IMG/VR virus record: IMGVR_UViG_3300045110_000208
Coordinates: 1-39,261 of that record
Strand: one strand, 5' to 3'
Source: a virus
Length of the DNA stretch: 39,261 nt
The translations under genes were made by a program, and so were the position numbers. Shown piece by piece: positions 7,243-13,853 of the stretch; position 1 is the stretch's first letter, and every line of letters begins with the position of its first letter. The notes under the pieces are model-generated. The model did not search any database. It saw only the letters and a program-made list of their open reading frames with translations, and had not been told where the DNA came from.

Positions 7243-7460
7243 CCGGCGCTGAGTTCCGTGAGGCGCTGGCTACTCTTGGGTGGTCCCAGCGCTACCTGAC
7301 GACGTTGCTGGCATGTGACACGAAGCTGACGACCCGCTGGAGCCGTGGGACGGCGGCGATACCGCCGAGCATCCGGGACTGGCTGACGCTGTTGGTGGCG
7401 TGTCGTGGTCGGTATCCCGTACCGGCTGAGTGGCGCACATTCCATCGCGGATCTGGCTAG
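7239..7460 (+). CDS. Xre-type helix-turn-helix protein, 73 aa
   Basis: The TTG at 7239 overlaps the upstream stop (TTGA). Residues 1-50, (M)TGAEFREALATLGWSQRYL followed by LACDTKLTTRWSRGTAAIPP, form a classic HTH: helix, S-Q-x-x-L, then a recognition helix ending T-R-W-x-x-G. The tail contains IRDWLTLLVACRG. It is probably the regulator of its own small operon, the inverted pair at 6702-6720 being a candidate site. Its stop overlaps by 3-4 bases the end of the convergent NusG-like gene. Confidence 0.7.
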   Translation: MTGAEFREALATLGWSQRYLTTLLACDTKLTTRWSRGTAAIPPSIRDWLTLLVACRGRYPVPAEWRTFHRGSG

Positions 7461-8041
7461 TAGTCCTGACGCTCGACGAGTGCATCGAATGGGTAGACGA
7501 CTTCGCGGAGTTGTCCGAGGAAGAGGATGCCGACCACCGCGTTTTCCTCCTGCACTGCGAGCACCACCCCTGGCAGCCCTGCGAACGGCCCCGCGCGAGG
7601 CGCCACAGCGTCGCCCAGGTGCCATTGGGCTGTTTTTGGTAGAGTGGTAGCGGCAAACGCCTCTACGCCGCGTAGCGCGCTCACGGCGCTCTCTGGTAGT
7701 ATATACGGGTTTGGTCCATCCATCATGAGGCGATTGATGCCGAGAGTGTGTGAGATGGGTGCCCAGGGCGATTGTATGCCCACGAACAGGTAGCTGGTGA
7801 AGAGCGGGACGGCGACGACGCGGGAGATTGTGCGGGTTGCTGGATCGCGGCGCATGACGTTGCGCAATGGCAGGTAGGCATCGAAGCCTTGGCGGCGGAG
7901 GTTGAGTGCGGCCCAGCGTTCGGCTTGTGGGTGGGTGTGGCAGACGCCCCACTGGGTGCGACGGCTACCGCACCGGAGGTCGCCGGGTTGTGTAGCTACG
8001 CACTGTGGGGGGTTGGCGTCAAGCGGCATCGGTTGGGCCAC
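7457..8041 (-). CDS. NusG/RfaH-like transcription factor, about 190 aa
   Basis: Residues about 30-130 show an NGN fold: WGVCHTHPQAERWAALNLRR, then GFDAYLPL, then VVAVPLFTSYLFVGIQ and GINRLMMDGPNPYILP. Residues about 140-192 show a KOW-type domain: HLGDAVAPRAGPFAGLPG, VVLAVQEENAVVGILFLG and REVVYPFDALVERQ. Such paralogues bind RNA polymerase and suppress pausing or termination at specific operons. It is the last gene of the leftward early operon. This is the classic place for a factor that lets polymerase proceed into later genes. The start is uncertain: GTG 8041 or ATG 8029, both overlapping the HNH gene, with no clear ribosome site. Confidence 0.78.
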   Translation of the reverse strand: MAQPMPLDANPPQCVATQPGDLRCGSRRTQWGVCHTHPQAERWAALNLRRQGFDAYLPLRNVMRRDPATRTISRVVAVPLFTSYLFVGIQSPWAPISHTLGINRLMMDGPNPYILPESAVSALRGVEAFAATTLPKTAQWHLGDAVAPRAGPFAGLPGVVLAVQEENAVVGILFLGQLREVVYPFDALVERQDY

Positions 8042-8432
8042 GGGCGGTCTGATCGCGCTCGACCTCCTCGTCGGTCAGGTGCTCGATGGCGTGGCAGGCC
8101 CTGCAAAGTACGATCAGGTCTTCGTCCAGTTCACAGCCACGCCGCCTGTAGGTGAGGTGGTGAACGTCGAGATGGTCGGTAGCGGCGCAGTAGAAGCATC
8201 TGCCCTCGGCTACTGCCAAAGCGCGCTGGCGCACGATGGCCCAGTGGTCGCTTCTGAGATAGCGCGAATACGGCATCCGGCGCAGCTCGTCGGGGTCCTC
8301 ACCGCTTTCGGACCAGAGGCCTGCCCGGCTGTAGCGAGATTCTGGTTTGGCCTGGTCTATCCAGATGTCCCGATAATCGTCGCAGCCCAGGAAGCTTGGC
8401 ATGGGGCCGAGGTCATAGGGGTTGCCGCTCAT
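8019..8432 (-). CDS. HNH endonuclease, 137 aa
   Basis: The C-terminal domain has CFYC near residue 79, LDVHHLTYRRRG with the catalytic His pair near 89, and DEDLIVLCRACHAIEH near 103. This is a zinc-stabilised HNH nuclease (CxxC...HH...CxxCH). The N-terminal half includes PYSRYLRSDHWAIVRQRAL, normal for this family. It lies in the replication operon, start overlapping the DUF1376 gene stop (ATGA). Possible roles are recombination, packaging cleavage or host DNA degradation; location favours a replication/recombination role. Confidence 0.85.
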   Translation of the reverse strand: MSGNPYDLGPMPSFLGCDDYRDIWIDQAKPESRYSRAGLWSESGEDPDELRRMPYSRYLRSDHWAIVRQRALAVAEGRCFYCAATDHLDVHHLTYRRRGCELDEDLIVLCRACHAIEHLTDEEVERDQTARGPTDAA

Positions 8433-9325
8433 GCTGGCACCATGATGCCGGCCTGCTTGCGGAGGGCGGCGAGTTGCGGCCCCGCGATGTAGCAGGCTTT
8501 GGGACGAACCGGCTTGGCGACGGCGGCCTTCTGCACGTCCAACGTGTGGTTGCGTTGTGGCAGCCTGGACGGTGCTGGAAGCGGTGGCAGAGTGTCCAGC
8601 AGCGCCTTCAGTCCGTCAGCCGGCAGCGAGGCTTGCTCGCGAGCGGAATTTCCTCCCGTTTCGCCCGGTTTTGCCTCGCGCGCGCATTCTTCCTGAGAAG
8701 TAAGTAATATATTCTCTCTCTTGGTAGAAGGTGGGGTGGCAAAACGGGTGGCAAACGGCTGGCAATTGCCAGAAACGGCTGGCAAAGGTGGTGGCAAACT
8801 ACCTGGCAAAGTTTTGGCAATTGCTAAGTTATCCACAACATAAGGTTTGGTTGATGTTGTGGCATTTGCCAGAGTTTTGTCATCGCCTGGCTGTGGGATG
8901 ACGTGGCGCTGCACAACCGGCGGTTGTTCGTGCTTGGCTTGTGGTGGCGGCAGCGGCGCCGGGGGCACGCTGCCATTGCTAGGGTGCAGCCGGTGCTTGG
9001 CCTCCGCGCCACGCTTCCCAGCCTCCCGCCGCTTCTCGCTCAGATCAATCCAGTGCTCACGCTCCTTGTCCATTCGCTTCTGATGCAACGTGCCATCACC
9101 GTTCGCGGTGAAAAAGCCAGTGAGCTTGCCCCACACCGCGGGCCACGTCTTGGCGTCGAGGCGCGTGATCGCAGCCAGCGCCTCCGGGTCATCCGGCAAC
9201 GGGCCGGTCTTCCAGTAGTGCATCAGCAACAGCACGTAGGCTCCATGCTGCAGCGTCGTCAGGTGCATGGTGTCACCCAGGTAGTCAGCCACATACAGCG
9301 GCATCCAGCGGTCGCCGTTGCTCAT
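8429..9325 (-). CDS. DUF1376-type replication protein, 298 aa
   Basis: The N-terminal 95 residues match the DUF1376 (YdaU-like) pattern: RWMPLYVADYLGDTMHLTTL, QHGAYVLLLMHYW, GPLPDDPEALAAITRLD, WPAVWGKLTGFFT. These proteins sit at the position of phage replication initiators such as lambda O. After residue 100 comes a basic linker, then low-complexity Pro/Gln sequence that coincides with DNA repeats (8737-8871), and a basic C-terminus. The origin therefore probably lies inside the gene, as in lambda O. It starts at 9325 in an ATGA overlap. No helicase-loader gene is recognisable next to it. Confidence 0.8.
   Translation of the reverse strand: MSNGDRWMPLYVADYLGDTMHLTTLQHGAYVLLLMHYWKTGPLPDDPEALAAITRLDAKTWPAVWGKLTGFFTANGDGTLHQKRMDKEREHWIDLSEKRREAGKRGAEAKHRLHPSNGSVPPAPLPPPQAKHEQPPVVQRHVIPQPGDDKTLANATTSTKPYVVDNLAIAKTLPGSLPPPLPAVSGNCQPFATRFATPPSTKRENILLTSQEECAREAKPGETGGNSAREQASLPADGLKALLDTLPPLPAPSRLPQRNHTLDVQKAAVAKPVRPKACYIAGPQLAALRKQAGIMVPA
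8701..8871. other. Probable replication origin: iterons, DnaA box, AT-rich patch
   Basis: TGGCAA(A) occurs at 8737, 8749, 8760, 8780, 8792, 8804 and 8815, spaced 12, 11, 20, 12, 12 and 11 bp. Inverted copies TTGCCA lie at 8766 and 8866. A perfect DnaA box TTATCCACA is at 8829-8837, and an AT-rich stretch TAAGTAATATATTCTC at 8701-8716 could melt. The 11-bp and 20-bp steps are not codon multiples, so the repeats are conserved as DNA rather than as peptide. All lie within the DUF1376 replication gene. Confidence 0.72.
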
Positions 9326-9756
9326 GGCCGGCCACCCAGCGCGACCACATAGATCCGCCGGCCACGCCCCACGCCTCGCGTTTCCGTGGCAATGCCAGCT
9401 TCCGTGAGCGCCCGCCGGATCTGCCGGCCGCCCTCACTGCTGCTGATGCCAAGGAACCGCGCCATCCAGTTCGCTGACGGCACCCGGCAGCCAGGCGTCA
9501 GCCGCGGCAATATCCACCTGGCAATCTTGTCGCGGTGCGATCGGCCTTCCGGCCTCGAATGTGAATACAAGGTGACCATGGTACGCGCTCCCTTGCTCAG
9601 GCCACGGAGCTGCGTTATGAAGGGGGCGTCAGCTTCTTCCCCTTCGGTGGGTGCAACCCCAAAGCCAGTTATGCAGTTACAGGCGCCGCCCATGTTTCCA
9701 GCATGGACGGCGTTCTCGTTTGTGGCACGGAATGCGTTGAGTCGGTAGGGGCTCAT
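9322..9756 (-). CDS. Winged-helix-like protein, 144 aa
   Basis: The ATG at 9756 overlaps the stop of the 33-aa gene (ATGA). The N-terminal half is loosely ordered with a Cys/Asn/Gly patch (GNMGGACNCITGFG). The C-terminal half, residues about 80-144, reads as a winged helix: RDKIARWILPRLTPGCRVPS, ANWMARFLGISSSEGGRQIR, RALTEAGIATETRGVGRGRR, IYVVAL. It probably binds DNA at or near the origin, or regulates the operon. Overlaps the DUF1376 gene by ATGA. Confidence 0.6.
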   Translation of the reverse strand: MSPYRLNAFRATNENAVHAGNMGGACNCITGFGVAPTEGEEADAPFITQLRGLSKGARTMVTLYSHSRPEGRSHRDKIARWILPRLTPGCRVPSANWMARFLGISSSEGGRQIRRALTEAGIATETRGVGRGRRIYVVALGGRP

Positions 9757-9854
9757 CGCACGCCCCCGCCCATCGTCACCACCACCAGCCACGTCGCGCC
9801 CGCGCTCAACGCCCAGGCAGCAGCCGTCAGGGCAAGGGCGCGCAGCAGGCTCAT
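9753..9854 (-). CDS. Tiny membrane peptide, 33 aa
   Basis: An ATG at 9854 overlaps the nuclease stop (ATGA), and the frame's own stop overlaps the next start (ATGA). The peptide is MSLLRALALTAAAWALSAGA, then TWLVVVTMGGGVR: one hydrophobic segment with a basic residue near the N-terminus. Being sandwiched between two perfect coupling overlaps is strong support despite its size. It may simply maintain coupling or act in the inner membrane; function unknown. Confidence 0.5.
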   Translation of the reverse strand: MSLLRALALTAAAWALSAGATWLVVVTMGGGVR

Positions 9855-10294
9855 GCGGCGCACCTCACCCGGCGATTGCGCGGGATGCCCCACTCATCGA
9901 TGCACGCCAGCAGCTCGTCCGCATCGCGCACCACGGCCACCCGGCCGCCCGCGGCAAGCACCGCCGCGCAGACGCTCTGCTGAGCCGGCGACAGCACGCC
10001 ATCGGCAGCCTTGATCTCGGGGTGATGCGCGCGGCCGCGATAGAGGATGAACAGATCCGCGATCCCCGCGATGATGCCGCGGCCCACCCGGATGCCAGGC
10101 ACCTCGCCGGCATAATTGGCATGGTCGATCGCCCACCACACGACGCCATCCCGAGACACCTTGCCAGGAGGAGCGAATTCCAACCGCAGCACGTCGCAGA
10201 GCTGCTTCTGGATCGGGTGCTCACGGACCACGGGAGCGGTGAGCCGGAACTTGGCCGGCACCGACACCCGCACGCCCTGCACAGGGCCGGTCAC
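9851..10294 (-). CDS. VRR-NUC-type (PD-(D/E)xK) nuclease, 147 aa
   Basis: The GTG at 10294 overlaps the upstream stop (GTGA). The domain includes HPIQKQLCDVLRLEFAPPGK, VVWWAIDHANYAGEVPG, then GIADLFILYRGRAHHPEIKA with the PD-D/E-x-K core (Asp of ADLF, Glu-x-Lys of HPEIKA), LSPAQQ and AVVRDADELLACIDEWG. VRR-NUC proteins are DNA-structure-specific nucleases; here it may act in replication or recombination together with the Bet annealase of the other early operon. Length fits stand-alone phage VRR-NUC proteins. Confidence 0.8.
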   Translation of the reverse strand: MTGPVQGVRVSVPAKFRLTAPVVREHPIQKQLCDVLRLEFAPPGKVSRDGVVWWAIDHANYAGEVPGIRVGRGIIAGIADLFILYRGRAHHPEIKAADGVLSPAQQSVCAAVLAAGGRVAVVRDADELLACIDEWGIPRNRRVRCAA

Positions 10295-10512
10295 TCGGCC
10301 GCCACCTGGCAGCGGCGCTGCGGGTAGCGCGGCTTGGTGCGGTCGAGGTATTCCGGCGTCAGGCCGGGGGTCAGCGCGATGATCCGGTGCCAGTGCCGCG
10401 AGGGAATGCCCCGGACGCGCCATTTCCCCACCGTGTTCTCAGGCATGCCGAACAGGCTGGCCACCCTCTTGTGCCCCCCCAGGTCTGCCAAAATGCGGGC
10501 GTGTCGGTTCAT
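10291..10512 (-). CDS. Carph-isopro-like HTH regulator, 73 aa (first leftward gene)
   Basis: Residues 3-50 (RHARILADLGGHKRVASLFG, then MPENTVGKWRVRGIPSRHWH and RIIAL) match the small HTH domain in which a GGxxxVAxLFG helix leads to xxVxxWRxRGIPxRHW. Such proteins occupy the Cro or CII position in many prophages. I prefer ATG 10512 over an in-frame TTG at 10539, because the TTG lies inside the operator CGGACGCAATGTCCG. It is the first gene of the leftward operon and faces the repressor across the operator region, so it is a candidate lytic regulator. Confidence 0.78.
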   Translation of the reverse strand: MNRHARILADLGGHKRVASLFGMPENTVGKWRVRGIPSRHWHRIIALTPGLTPEYLDRTKPRYPQRRCQVAAE

Positions 10513-10530
10513 GAGACTGCCACAGTCTGG

Positions 10531-10553
10531 CGGACGCAATGTCCGTACGTCAA
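10531..10553 (-). promoter_or_regulatory. Leftward early promoter with operator O1
   Basis: On the minus strand TTGACG (10553-10548) is followed after 2 nt by the dyad CGGAC-GCAAT-GTCCG (10531-10545, plus-strand reading). No good -10 is visible at 17 bp (CCAGAC), though CAGACT one base further on is a partial match. The operator matches those at 10570 and 11059, so the repressor should shut off the leftward operon here. Confidence 0.55.
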
Positions 10554-10559
10554 GTAGGG

Positions 10560-10588
10560 TTGACGAAGCGGGACAAAATGTCCCATTT
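10560..10588 (+). promoter_or_regulatory. Repressor promoter with operator O2
   Basis: TTGACG (10560-10565) lies 4 bp before the perfect dyad GGGACA-AAA-TGTCCC (10570-10584); the -10 region (CATTTT, 10584-10589) is weak. It precedes the repressor gene by about 45 bp and faces right, so binding here would autoregulate the repressor. Confidence 0.6.
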
Positions 10589-10628
10589 TGGCACAGCTAA
10601 ATTATTTAGCTTTTTAAAGGAGCGCGCT

Positions 10629-11027
10629 GTGCGCCAGACCCCCTATGACCTCCAGGAAGAAGACGCCCAACGCATAGGGGACCGCTTGCGATGGGTGCGG
10701 GAACTGGTTGACGCGACACCGACCCAACTCGCCGCCGACCTCGGTGTGGATAGCCCGTCAGTCCGTCACATCGAAAACGGCATTCGACTTCCTTCGCTAC
10801 GCATGCTCATGGTTATCTGCCATGTCTTGCGCATTTCTCCACAGTACCTGCTGTGGGGTTCGCTCGCTGAAGTAGAGCCAGAATTAGCGGCCAGGCTGAA
10901 AGCGGAACATCCTGAGCTGACGTGGCCAGCCTCATCGCCTGCTCCCTGCAATAACCACAGTTCGCCACCGAACACCGGTCGCCGCTCCAGGACACGGGGG
11001 AGACACACCGTCTCGGGGGCTGTTTAG
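10629..11027 (+). CDS. Xre-family phage repressor, 132 aa
   Basis: GTG 10629 is preceded by AAAGGAG (10615-10621), the best ribosome site here, so the longer frame from 10539 is rejected. Residues 13-75 form the HTH: DAQRIGDRLRWVRELVDATP, TQLAADLGVDSPSVRHIENG, IRLPSLRMLMVICHVL, ISPQYLLWG. After residue 80 there is only a short basic, probably disordered tail. No S24/LexA-type Ser-Lys protease domain is present, so RecA-driven self-cleavage is not expected. Operators on both sides imply control of both early operons plus its own. It ends inside an intrinsic terminator. Confidence 0.82.
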   Translation: MRQTPYDLQEEDAQRIGDRLRWVRELVDATPTQLAADLGVDSPSVRHIENGIRLPSLRMLMVICHVLRISPQYLLWGSLAEVEPELAARLKAEHPELTWPASSPAPCNNHSSPPNTGRRSRTRGRHTVSGAV

Positions 11028-11048
11028 CCCCCTCCCTTCCCTTTTTTT
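11015..11048 (+). terminator. Intrinsic terminator of the repressor gene
   Basis: GGGGGCT (11015-11021), loop GTTT, AGCCCCC (11026-11032), then CTCCCTTCCC and seven T (11042-11048). The repressor stop TAG (11025-11027) lies at the loop edge. The T run runs directly into the -35 box of the next promoter at 11050. Confidence 0.85.
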
Positions 11049-11049
11049 G

Positions 11050-11078
11050 TTGACTTGCAGGACTATTTGTCCCAACAT
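11050..11078 (+). promoter_or_regulatory. Rightward early promoter with operator O3
   Basis: TTGACT (11050-11055), then after 3 bp the dyad AGGAC-TATT-TGTCCC (11059-11073), with CAACAT (11073-11078) at a 17-bp spacing. The arrangement matches O1 and O2. It drives the rightward operon to 14875. Confidence 0.62.
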
Positions 11079-11115
11079 CCGGTATCAGAAAGCGTGAGTT
11101 ACCGGAGAACGTCCC

Positions 11116-11736
11116 GTGCGGCATTCGCCTTCCCCTGATTTCCCGACGTGTTGGCGTCCGTTCGACACGCCAGCCGCGAGTGTAACGCGCCATTCACACG
11201 GGATGACAAGCCCGGATCGAGAGAATTTCGGACCAAACGCAACGAGTTCTAAACCTTTCGATTTAGCGCCCGCCGGTAACCAGCTACCAACAACCAATTT
11301 GCTGCATTGCAGCGGTCAGCGCCGTGAGCGCGAAGGAAACTCGTGCCATGGCGAAACCAACCAGCCGGAAATTTGGCATACCACAGGCGAAACGACGACT
11401 GAAGTCGCTGAAGCTGGAATTGGCAGCGATCGGAGGGGCTTACGATCTGTCAGCCGGGGAGTTGCGCCGCCGCATCCTGGCCCTGCTGGCGACAGTCCAC
11501 GAACTGATCGAGCGCTTTCCGCTTCCGCCGTCCGAATAGCCGGCACGCTGCGCCAGCAAGCCCTCGATGAGCTGCTGAACGACCTCGCGGAATATCGCGC
11601 CGCCAGCCCAGCCTTCTACTGGCGCCGCCTCGCGCGGCACGACATCGCCCGGTTCAAGCGCGACTTCCTTCGGCCAGAGCGCGCCGCCTTCGAGGCGGCG
11701 GTGGAGCGGACGAAGCAGCGGAAGGAGGCCGCCTAA
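11116..11736 (+). CDS. Early protein with unresolved start; only the 3' third is clearly coding
   Basis: From about 11540 to TAA 11736 this frame is clearly coding (very high GC at third positions): LRQQALDELLNDLAEYRAAS, PAFYWRRLARHDIARFKRDF, then RPERAAFEAAVERTKQRKEAA, a basic helical protein. Its stop overlaps the next ATG (TAATG) with AAGGAGG just upstream. Yet no ATG, GTG or TTG occurs in frame after the previous gene's stop at 11539. The nearest starts are TTG 11299 and GTG 11116, the latter with GGAGA upstream. So the true product is a 206-aa overprinted protein, a protein with a rare start, or the second half of a gene split by a one-base deletion. Confidence 0.45.
   Translation: MRHSPSPDFPTCWRPFDTPAASVTRHSHGMTSPDRENFGPNATSSKPFDLAPAGNQLPTTNLLHCSGQRREREGNSCHGETNQPEIWHTTGETTTEVAEAGIGSDRRGLRSVSRGVAPPHPGPAGDSPRTDRALSASAVRIAGTLRQQALDELLNDLAEYRAASPAFYWRRLARHDIARFKRDFLRPERAAFEAAVERTKQRKEAA
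11348..11539 (+). CDS. Small basic helical protein, 63 aa
   Basis: ATG 11348 (alternatively GTG 11324, 71 aa). Product: MAKPTSRKFGIPQAKRRLKS, LKLELAAIGGAYDLSAGELR, RRILALLATVHELIERFPLP, PSE. The N-terminus is basic, followed by two amphipathic helices. The reading frame shows good third-position GC, so it is probably real although a second open frame overlaps it. Its stop at 11539 is followed at once, in the -1 frame, by the coding segment ending at 11736, which may originally have been its continuation. Confidence 0.5.
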   Translation: MAKPTSRKFGIPQAKRRLKSLKLELAAIGGAYDLSAGELRRRILALLATVHELIERFPLPPSE

Positions 11737-12512: not shown

Positions 12513-12822
12513 GCAGCAGCTACCGCCAGCAGACGAGCTGTTCGACGTTCGGGATAAGATCAAGCAACTCACATCCCGCGAACGCGAACTCAAAGCCATC
12601 GTCATCACGGACCCATCGGCTCGCACCGGGAACCACTACTGCGTCGAGGTCAAAGACGTGGCCACCGCGCGGATGGACGTAAAAGAGCTACGCAACATGC
12701 ATCCTGAGATCGCGGAGCAGTTCACCCATACCGTGTTCGACAAGCGTGTCGAGCTGCGCGGGATCTCGGACGACGGTGAACTGGTGTCCCTACGCCGCAA
12801 ACCCGAGAAGGCCACACCATGA
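12502..12822 (+). CDS. Hypothetical protein upstream of Bet, 106 aa
   Basis: GTG 12502 is preceded by AGGAGG (12487-12492); the ATG at 12493 is too close to it. Product: (M)SSEQQLPPADELFDVRDKI, KQLTSRERELKAIVITDPSA, RTGNHYCVEVKDVATARMDV, KELRNMHPEIAEQFTHTVFD, ending RLRRKPEKATP-like. The N-terminal half is coiled coil, the C-terminal half alternates strands and helices. It is coupled to Bet by ATGA and may be a recombination accessory, occupying the place where other phages carry a Gam- or exonuclease-partner gene. Confidence 0.6.
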   Translation: MSSEQQLPPADELFDVRDKIKQLTSRERELKAIVITDPSARTGNHYCVEVKDVATARMDVKELRNMHPEIAEQFTHTVFDKRVELRGISDDGELVSLRRKPEKATP

Positions 12823-13853
12823 ACGCGATCACCACCACAGACGACAAACCAACGCACGACGAGGTCATCCGCGTGCTGGAGAACAGCCTGTATCCCGGCG
12901 CCAAGCGCGAGAGCATCGAGCTGGTGCTGGCGTATTGCCGTGCCAACGGCCTCGATCCGATGCTACGCCCGGTTTACATAGTGCCAACGTCGATCAAGCT
13001 GCCGAATGGCCAATACGAGACGCGAGACGTGCTCATGCCTGGTATTGCCGACTACCGCATCAAGGCAGCGCGCAGCGGCGAGTATGGCGGCAAGTCGGAA
13101 CCCGAGTTCGGCCCCGATGTGCGCGAGACGCTTTCCGGCGTCGCGATTGCATACCCGGCATGGTGCCGCATCACGGTGCGACGGATCGTGCAGGGGCAAC
13201 CGCGCGAGTTCACCGCAACAGAGCGTTGGCTGGAGAACTACGCCACCGGCAAGCGCGACACCCAGGCGCCGAATGCCATGTGGAAGAAGCGGCCCTATGG
13301 GCAACTCGCCAAGGTCGCGGAGGCGCAGGCCTTGCGCATGGCGTTCCCTGAGTTCAGCGCCGGCTACACGATGGAGGAAATGCAGGGGAAGACCGGGCAA
13401 GACGATGACTGGTCCGGCACCACGATCGAGGGCACGCGCGAGGCGCTGCAGCCACCATCCAGCCCGCGTGATGCGCTCAACGCCCAGATCCCCCTGCGCT
13501 CAGCCGCGGCCGCCACACCGCGCGCGCCACGCAAGGCGGATCATGAGGTCTACGACGCGCCACTACCAAAGCCGGTTGACCGCTCGCAGTGGACGGACGG
13601 TATGTGGCGCAGTTGGATCGACGCCAAGCTACGCCCGGAACTGGACAAACTCACCACGCGGGAAGAAGTCGCAGCGCTCGGTGAGAAAGCGTCGGTGAAG
13701 GACGCCATCGATCCCAAACTCGCCCCCGAGTGGGTGCGGCGCGATGTGGCGGAGATCCTAGCCGACTATTTCCGCAGCCTGCCGGAAGCCGCGCCAGCCG
13801 ACGACCTGGACGAGGTCGCAATCGCTGGCGAAGAGAAGCTCGCGGCCGGCTGA
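12819..13853 (+). CDS. bet: Phage recombination protein Bet (RecT-family annealase), 344 aa
   Basis: The first 195 residues match Bet/Red-beta: VIRVLENSLYPGAKRESIEL, VLAYCRANGLDPMLRPVYIV, RDVLMPGIADYRIKAARSGE, PEFGP, YPAWCRITVRRIV, REFTATERWLENYATGK, KRPYGQLAKVAEAQALRMAF PEF. Bet anneals complementary single strands during phage recombination and concatemer formation. The C-terminal 150 residues are variable, with Pro/Arg linkers and a helical end. No lambda-type exonuclease gene is adjacent; the VRR-NUC protein of the opposite operon may supply nuclease activity, which is conjecture. Confidence 0.9.
   Translation: MNAITTTDDKPTHDEVIRVLENSLYPGAKRESIELVLAYCRANGLDPMLRPVYIVPTSIKLPNGQYETRDVLMPGIADYRIKAARSGEYGGKSEPEFGPDVRETLSGVAIAYPAWCRITVRRIVQGQPREFTATERWLENYATGKRDTQAPNAMWKKRPYGQLAKVAEAQALRMAFPEFSAGYTMEEMQGKTGQDDDWSGTTIEGTREALQPPSSPRDALNAQIPLRSAAAATPRAPRKADHEVYDAPLPKPVDRSQWTDGMWRSWIDAKLRPELDKLTTREEVAALGEKASVKDAIDPKLAPEWVRRDVAEILADYFRSLPEAAPADDLDEVAIAGEEKLAAG

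Follow-up and report, generated by a model that had tools for sequence, protein, structure and literature searches.

A putative phage replication origin with one-turn iterons inside a DUF1376 gene

Background

The replication origin of phage lambda, placed halfway along gene O, is made up of iterons that O binds, together with an AT-rich tract (PMC7466680). Its four 18-bp iterons, found at nt 349-433 of the 900-nt O gene, start 20, 24 and 23 bp apart, at about two helical turns. A second system is the Rac prophage of E. coli K-12, for which an active origin, oriJ, is reported (PMC3945230), and whose YdaU is an annotated DUF1376 protein. In K-12 ydaU, copies of GTTCAAAC stand 33 bp apart with an inverted copy 23 bp further on, both distances being near helical multiples, and ACAGAT units follow. 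DUF1376 is listed in Pfam as of unknown function, yet it is common in the phages and prophages of proteobacteria, Rac included.

Here we analyse a virus record of 39,261 bp, called the window below, in which a DUF1376 gene of 897 nt carries an array of short repeats. The array resembles the lambda origin in that the repeats lie in the middle of a putative initiator gene and encode the part between its N- and C-terminal regions. In addition, lambda has an A-rich tract on the downstream side of its iterons (PMC7466680), as the window has an AT-rich one. However, the units in the window are short and only 11-12 bp apart, and both a lambda O family match and a helicase-loader gene next door are absent. 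The protein belongs to the same family as Rac YdaU, whereas the repeat sequence in ydaU is another one and its array is sparser; moreover, ydaU is followed by the DnaC-like ydaV, an arrangement seen in the related phage, while the window has no such loader gene. Our search of the open-access literature found no description of intragenic iterons in DUF1376 genes.

Results

The DUF1376 gene and its neighbourhood

The window carries podovirus-like structural genes (portal, major head, scaffold and ejection proteins). Its putative replication initiator gene, at 8429-9325 on the minus strand, encodes 298 aa, of which aa 7-88 match Pfam family PF07120 (DUF1376) with 64.7 bits against a curated cut-off of 30.1 (E 1e-17). 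The lambda O family has no Pfam match in this protein, PF07120 being the only family found up to E 0.1. The PHROG families that the protein matches are annotated as primosomal protein, with a best E of 3e-29.

The next gene downstream, at 8019-8432 (-), is HNH-nuclease-like, with matches to PHROG HNH families and to PF01844 (E 7.5e-4, just under the curated cut-off); it holds the place that a helicase-loader gene has in lambda-type phages. Among the ORFs scanned with Pfam and PHROG, no clear helicase-loader gene is recognised adjoining the initiator, and HNH- and NusG-like genes are found there instead. The NusG-family protein is encoded two genes downstream of the initiator, at 7457-8041 (-) (PF02357, E 4e-12; PHROG transcription antiterminator), and is a candidate phage-specific antiterminator. 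Upstream of the initiator, which lies in an early-type operon, is a repressor-like gene at 10539-11027, and the two genes between them, 9322-9792 (-) and 9851-10423 (-), have no Pfam match, the product of the latter showing PHROG endonuclease similarity (E 7e-11). A gene for a RecT-type single-strand annealing protein, at 12819-13853 (+), is on the strand opposite to the replication operon. A scan for sigma-70-like promoters over 8300-11200 finds none. Along the window, the GC skew changes sign only locally, at 7-9 kb, which is not decisive for the origin position.

The DUF1376 domain, encoded by 9062-9307 (-), is a predicted winged helix and the putative iteron-binding part of the protein. 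In the AlphaFold model of the 298 aa, pLDDT is about 86-97 over aa 11-110; the N-terminal domain (aa 11-112) is modelled with confidence as helices, a short strand and a long helix, and the rest is mostly a low-confidence middle, encoded by the array, with short helices at the C-terminus. This predicted layout would suit a protein whose DNA-binding head and partner-binding tail are joined by a free linker. Structural alignment of aa 1-84 with the N-domain of DnaD and those of plasmid initiators (2vn2, 2v79, 4pql, 4pt7, 5kbj), which are winged-helix replication-protein domains, gives Z of 4.6-5.4, too low for a claim of homology; the DnaD matches (Z 4.6-4.9), like the best of all matches (5.9), are within the noise level of the tool. 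A PDB sequence search with the profile of the DUF1376 family gives no match. In Rac-SA53, YdaU (L084, 2986-4002) has its DUF1376 domain fused to a DnaT DNA-binding domain at the C-terminus (PF17948, E 1.5e-18), which speaks for a part in primosome assembly; Pfam gives no match for the C-terminal part of the window protein.

The repeat array

Seven direct copies of TGGCAA, read as TTGCCA on the coding strand, make up an iteron array at 8737-8820 (+), with starts at 8737, 8749, 8760, 8780, 8792, 8804 and 8815. The start-to-start spacings are 12, 11, 20, 12, 12 and 11 bp, and on the coding strand the copies fall in frames 1, 0, 0, 0, 2, 1 and 1, so that all three frames are used. Inverted copies are found at 8766-8771 and 8866-8871. 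The first of these completes a palindromic double iteron, TGGCAATTGCCA, at 8760-8771, which occupies some of the 20-bp gap between direct copies and is also present in the related loci L002, L003 and L006. A near-palindromic double iteron, TGGCAATTGCTA, lies 55 bp from it at 8815-8826, and is a perfect TGGCAATTGCCA in L002 and L003; an outlying palindrome-like copy, TGGCATTTGCCA, with inverted TTGCCA, is at 8860-8871. At 8829-8837 (+) there is an exact DnaA box, TTATCCACA. An AT-rich tract at 8696-8722 (core 8701-8716), a putative unwinding element, borders the iterons on the side that is downstream in the coding sense.

An earlier note on this DNA had described seven direct copies at 11-12 bp, inverted copies, the DnaA box and the AT-rich core, all within one coding sequence. 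The sequence bears this out in every element and places all of them inside the ORF at 8429-9325 (-); only the regular spacing has to be amended, for the one gap of 20 bp.

The array is the strongest 11/12-bp periodic spot of the whole window, scoring 25 matches where the next distinct place has 10. The G+C content over 8701-8871 is 46%, compared with 63% for the window. As single-stranded DNA, the minus strand of 8690-8890 folds far better than its shuffles (z -5.1), probably because of the inverted TGGCAA/TTGCCA copies.

The array is kept in the close relatives L002-L007, and an AT-rich stretch stands at the equivalent place in all of them. The two nearest, L002 and L003, with 93-94% protein identity, keep every TGGCAA copy. 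At 62% protein identity, L006 and L007 have TTTGCCA units in the same register as the main block of the window (12, 12, 20, 11, 12) together with extra iteron copies, and then TACNNC-like units at 6 bp before the AT-rich stretch. The DnaA box is intact in L002, L003 and L006 and has one mismatch in L007.

Selection on the DNA of the array

When the same protein is recoded with the codon usage of the phage, at most 6 copies of TGGCAA arise in the gene and at most 4 within 171 bp, seven in the gene being reached by none of the 20,000 synonymous recodings. When instead the synonymous codons of the gene itself are permuted, no more than 6 copies come to lie within 171 bp, and seven are again reached in 0 of 20,000. 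Divergence points the same way: of the fourfold-degenerate sites, 1 of 33 is variable within the array region and 27 of 117 outside it (Fisher p 0.0096). In gene nt 439-645 there are 12 differences between the window, L002 and L003, none of them in an iteron or the DnaA box; nine affect the first or second position of a codon, which means that the protein changes while the repeats stay. The synonymous-recoding nulls and the low synonymous divergence thus support the conclusion that selection acts on the DNA of the array. The earlier note had concluded as much from spacings that are not multiples of three; its conclusion stands, and its argument is weak when taken alone, 12 being such a multiple.

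One-turn repeats across the DUF1376 family

In all, scans with the alignment of close relatives and then with a profile yield 248 loci with a DUF1376 gene from viral and genome collections and six annotated phage records. In the genome contigs the single protein as query finds no relative, while the profile finds 80 loci there. The hosts include Bosea, Bradyrhizobium, Rhizobium, Pseudomonas, Burkholderia, Citrobacter and Brevundimonas. Dereplicated and freed of the window clade, the test set comprises 187 genes, in which 6-mers recurring at a fixed distance are counted against codon shuffles that preserve the protein and its amino-acid order.

Over nt 241-500 of the 187 genes, recurrences at lag 11 number 504 against 44 in the shuffles, and at lag 12 they number 649 against 121. 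The excess continues at longer lags, with 236 against 24 at lag 22, 164 against 25 at lag 23 and 102 against 19 at lag 34, while lags 10 and 13 show no real excess. Lags 11, 22 and 23 are not multiples of three, so repeats at the codon level cannot produce them. The signal sits just after the DUF1376 domain, and the gene tail is nearly without it (32 against 15 at lag 11). The lag-11 ratio, 9.0 in the DUF1376 genes, is 1.07 in 588 control ORFs of the same loci, which rules out a background periodicity of phage genes as the cause. An artefact is unlikely, since the signal drops both at neighbouring lags and in the control ORFs; the 187 dereplicated genes are still related by descent, and hence the family counts cannot be taken as wholly independent. 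Of 80 genes examined one by one, 47 reach p 0.01 and 34 reach it on lags 11, 22 and 23 alone; in the 33 that fall short of p 0.01 the array is undetectable at this level. Repeats at conserved spacing in related DUF1376 genes, as the earlier note had predicted, are therefore found in the close relatives and across the family.

The iteron units vary by lineage (GCAATGC, TGGCAAA, GCGAACGCA, CATCGCA, TCAACGG, CGTTCAA, TTTGCCA), while the one-turn spacing stays constant; a GCAA core recurs among them in both orientations relative to the gene. Similarity of iterons tracks similarity of the domain (Mantel r 0.215, p 0.0005), which is expected if the domain reads the repeats, and which shared descent alone could also yield. 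In a mapping of recognition residues, alignment column 7 (W/Y/F) alone rises above the permuted data, at 0.255 where the null reaches 0.198 at most; clade structure probably accounts for it, and no recognition helix is indicated. A DnaA box occurs in the array region of 1 of the 187 genes outside the window clade, no more than background, and is thus ruled out as a family feature. Any part that it plays in the origin would be peculiar to the window clade and foreign to the general design.

A WCANNN tract downstream of the iterons

Directly downstream of the iterons, many of these genes, for example in loci L063, L032, L048 and L020, have an in-frame tract of 6-bp WCANNN units (TCACCT, ACAGAT, TCACAA and similar) that encodes PS, TD or QS repeats. 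At least three consecutive units are found in 69 of the 187 genes, about a third, compared with 4 after codon shuffling. Within the S/T tracts 68% of Ser codons are TCA and 62% of Thr codons are ACA, against 15% and 18% in the remainder of these genes. Among 30 such genes whose array is clear, 29 have the tract beginning 0-41 nt past the last detected iteron, and a purine-rich or A-rich run often comes next. Lambda has ACACAAAAGACACTATTACAAAAGAAAA at the matching place. The window clade shows no clear WCANNN tract.

Discussion

The region at about 8696-8871 is very probably a replication origin of the phage, located in the gene of its own initiator, which would bind the iterons, open the AT-rich tract and recruit the helicase. 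To the repeats, phasing, conservation, selection on DNA and family-wide layout described above, this reading adds protein binding, unwinding, helicase recruitment and a start of replication at the array. The N-terminal winged-helix DUF1376 domain would bind the TGGCAAA iterons, and since these are one helical turn apart, several protomers could sit in a row along a single face of the DNA. The nucleoprotein complex so formed would then strain or melt the AT-rich tract beside it, while the host helicase may be recruited by the C-terminal part of the protein. That the protein tolerates the repeats is presumably due to their encoding the predicted disordered linker between its two ends.

Other roles for the repeats deserve consideration. 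They might be operators and no origin, used by the DUF1376 protein or by a different regulator to control transcription of its own operon, as short-repeat arrays can serve regulators and the operon around the site is of an early type, with a repressor-like gene (10539-11027) upstream. However, the array is in mid-gene, away from any promoter, with no sigma-70-like one at 8300-11200; it adjoins an AT-rich tract at the position of the lambda origin, and the DUF1376 family bears replication annotations, so that we consider operators quite unlikely. The TTGC core also recalls lambda CII-type sites, which have the form TTGC-N6-TTGC, and the 11-12 bp spacing does not fit N6. Replication driven by DnaA through the box at 8829-8837, with the DUF1376 protein as an accessory, would agree with the exact match and with its persistence in the four relatives (one mismatch in the last), but a single box is unlike a multi-box DnaA origin and its background frequency in the other 187 genes makes this very improbable.

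Iteron-like arrays also occur at centromere sites, and in some phages pac sites lie inside genes. With such precedents, the array might be a partition, packaging or recombination site that has come to lie in this gene by chance; we give this only a slight probability, as the array goes with the DUF1376 domain across phages of different hosts, which ties it to the DUF1376 protein and not to packaging or partition genes. The repeats could, at last, be a by-product of selection for a proline-rich repeated linker peptide, several copies sharing one frame and giving LP pairs in a low-complexity linker. This is next to impossible and is contradicted by the frame use, the synonymous recoding and the synonymous divergence: the copies use all three frames, no synonymous recoding brings the array back, fourfold sites hardly vary while the spacers do change at codon positions 1 and 2, and the family excess at lags 11, 22 and 23 survives a control that keeps the amino-acid order. 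We therefore retain the intragenic origin as the preferred reading.

The WCANNN tracts suggest a wider idea, which we hold as possible and rather doubtful. DUF1376 phages may share a two-part origin code within the initiator gene: lineage-specific one-turn iterons that would bear an initiator filament on one face, and immediately downstream a strand-specific WCANNN strip for loading or unwinding, comparable to the DnaA-trios of bacterial origins. The window clade would keep the first part and have only a degraded or AT-rich form of the second.

The family-wide array would give DUF1376 a concrete role, and make the origin position predictable from sequence alone in many phage genomes. It would supply many natural initiator-iteron pairs for the study of how initiator specificity changes, and its one-turn spacing and the WCANNN tract depart from the lambda model in ways open to test. 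The description as lambda O-like, made in the earlier note, is right for the layout and wrong for homology and repeat geometry, the lambda iterons being 20-24 bp apart. The closest system to the window is the lambda origin by layout and Rac YdaU by protein family. What appears to be new, judging from the open-access papers searched, is a putative lambda-like intragenic origin with one-turn iterons and an initiator family that has no detected sequence match to lambda O.
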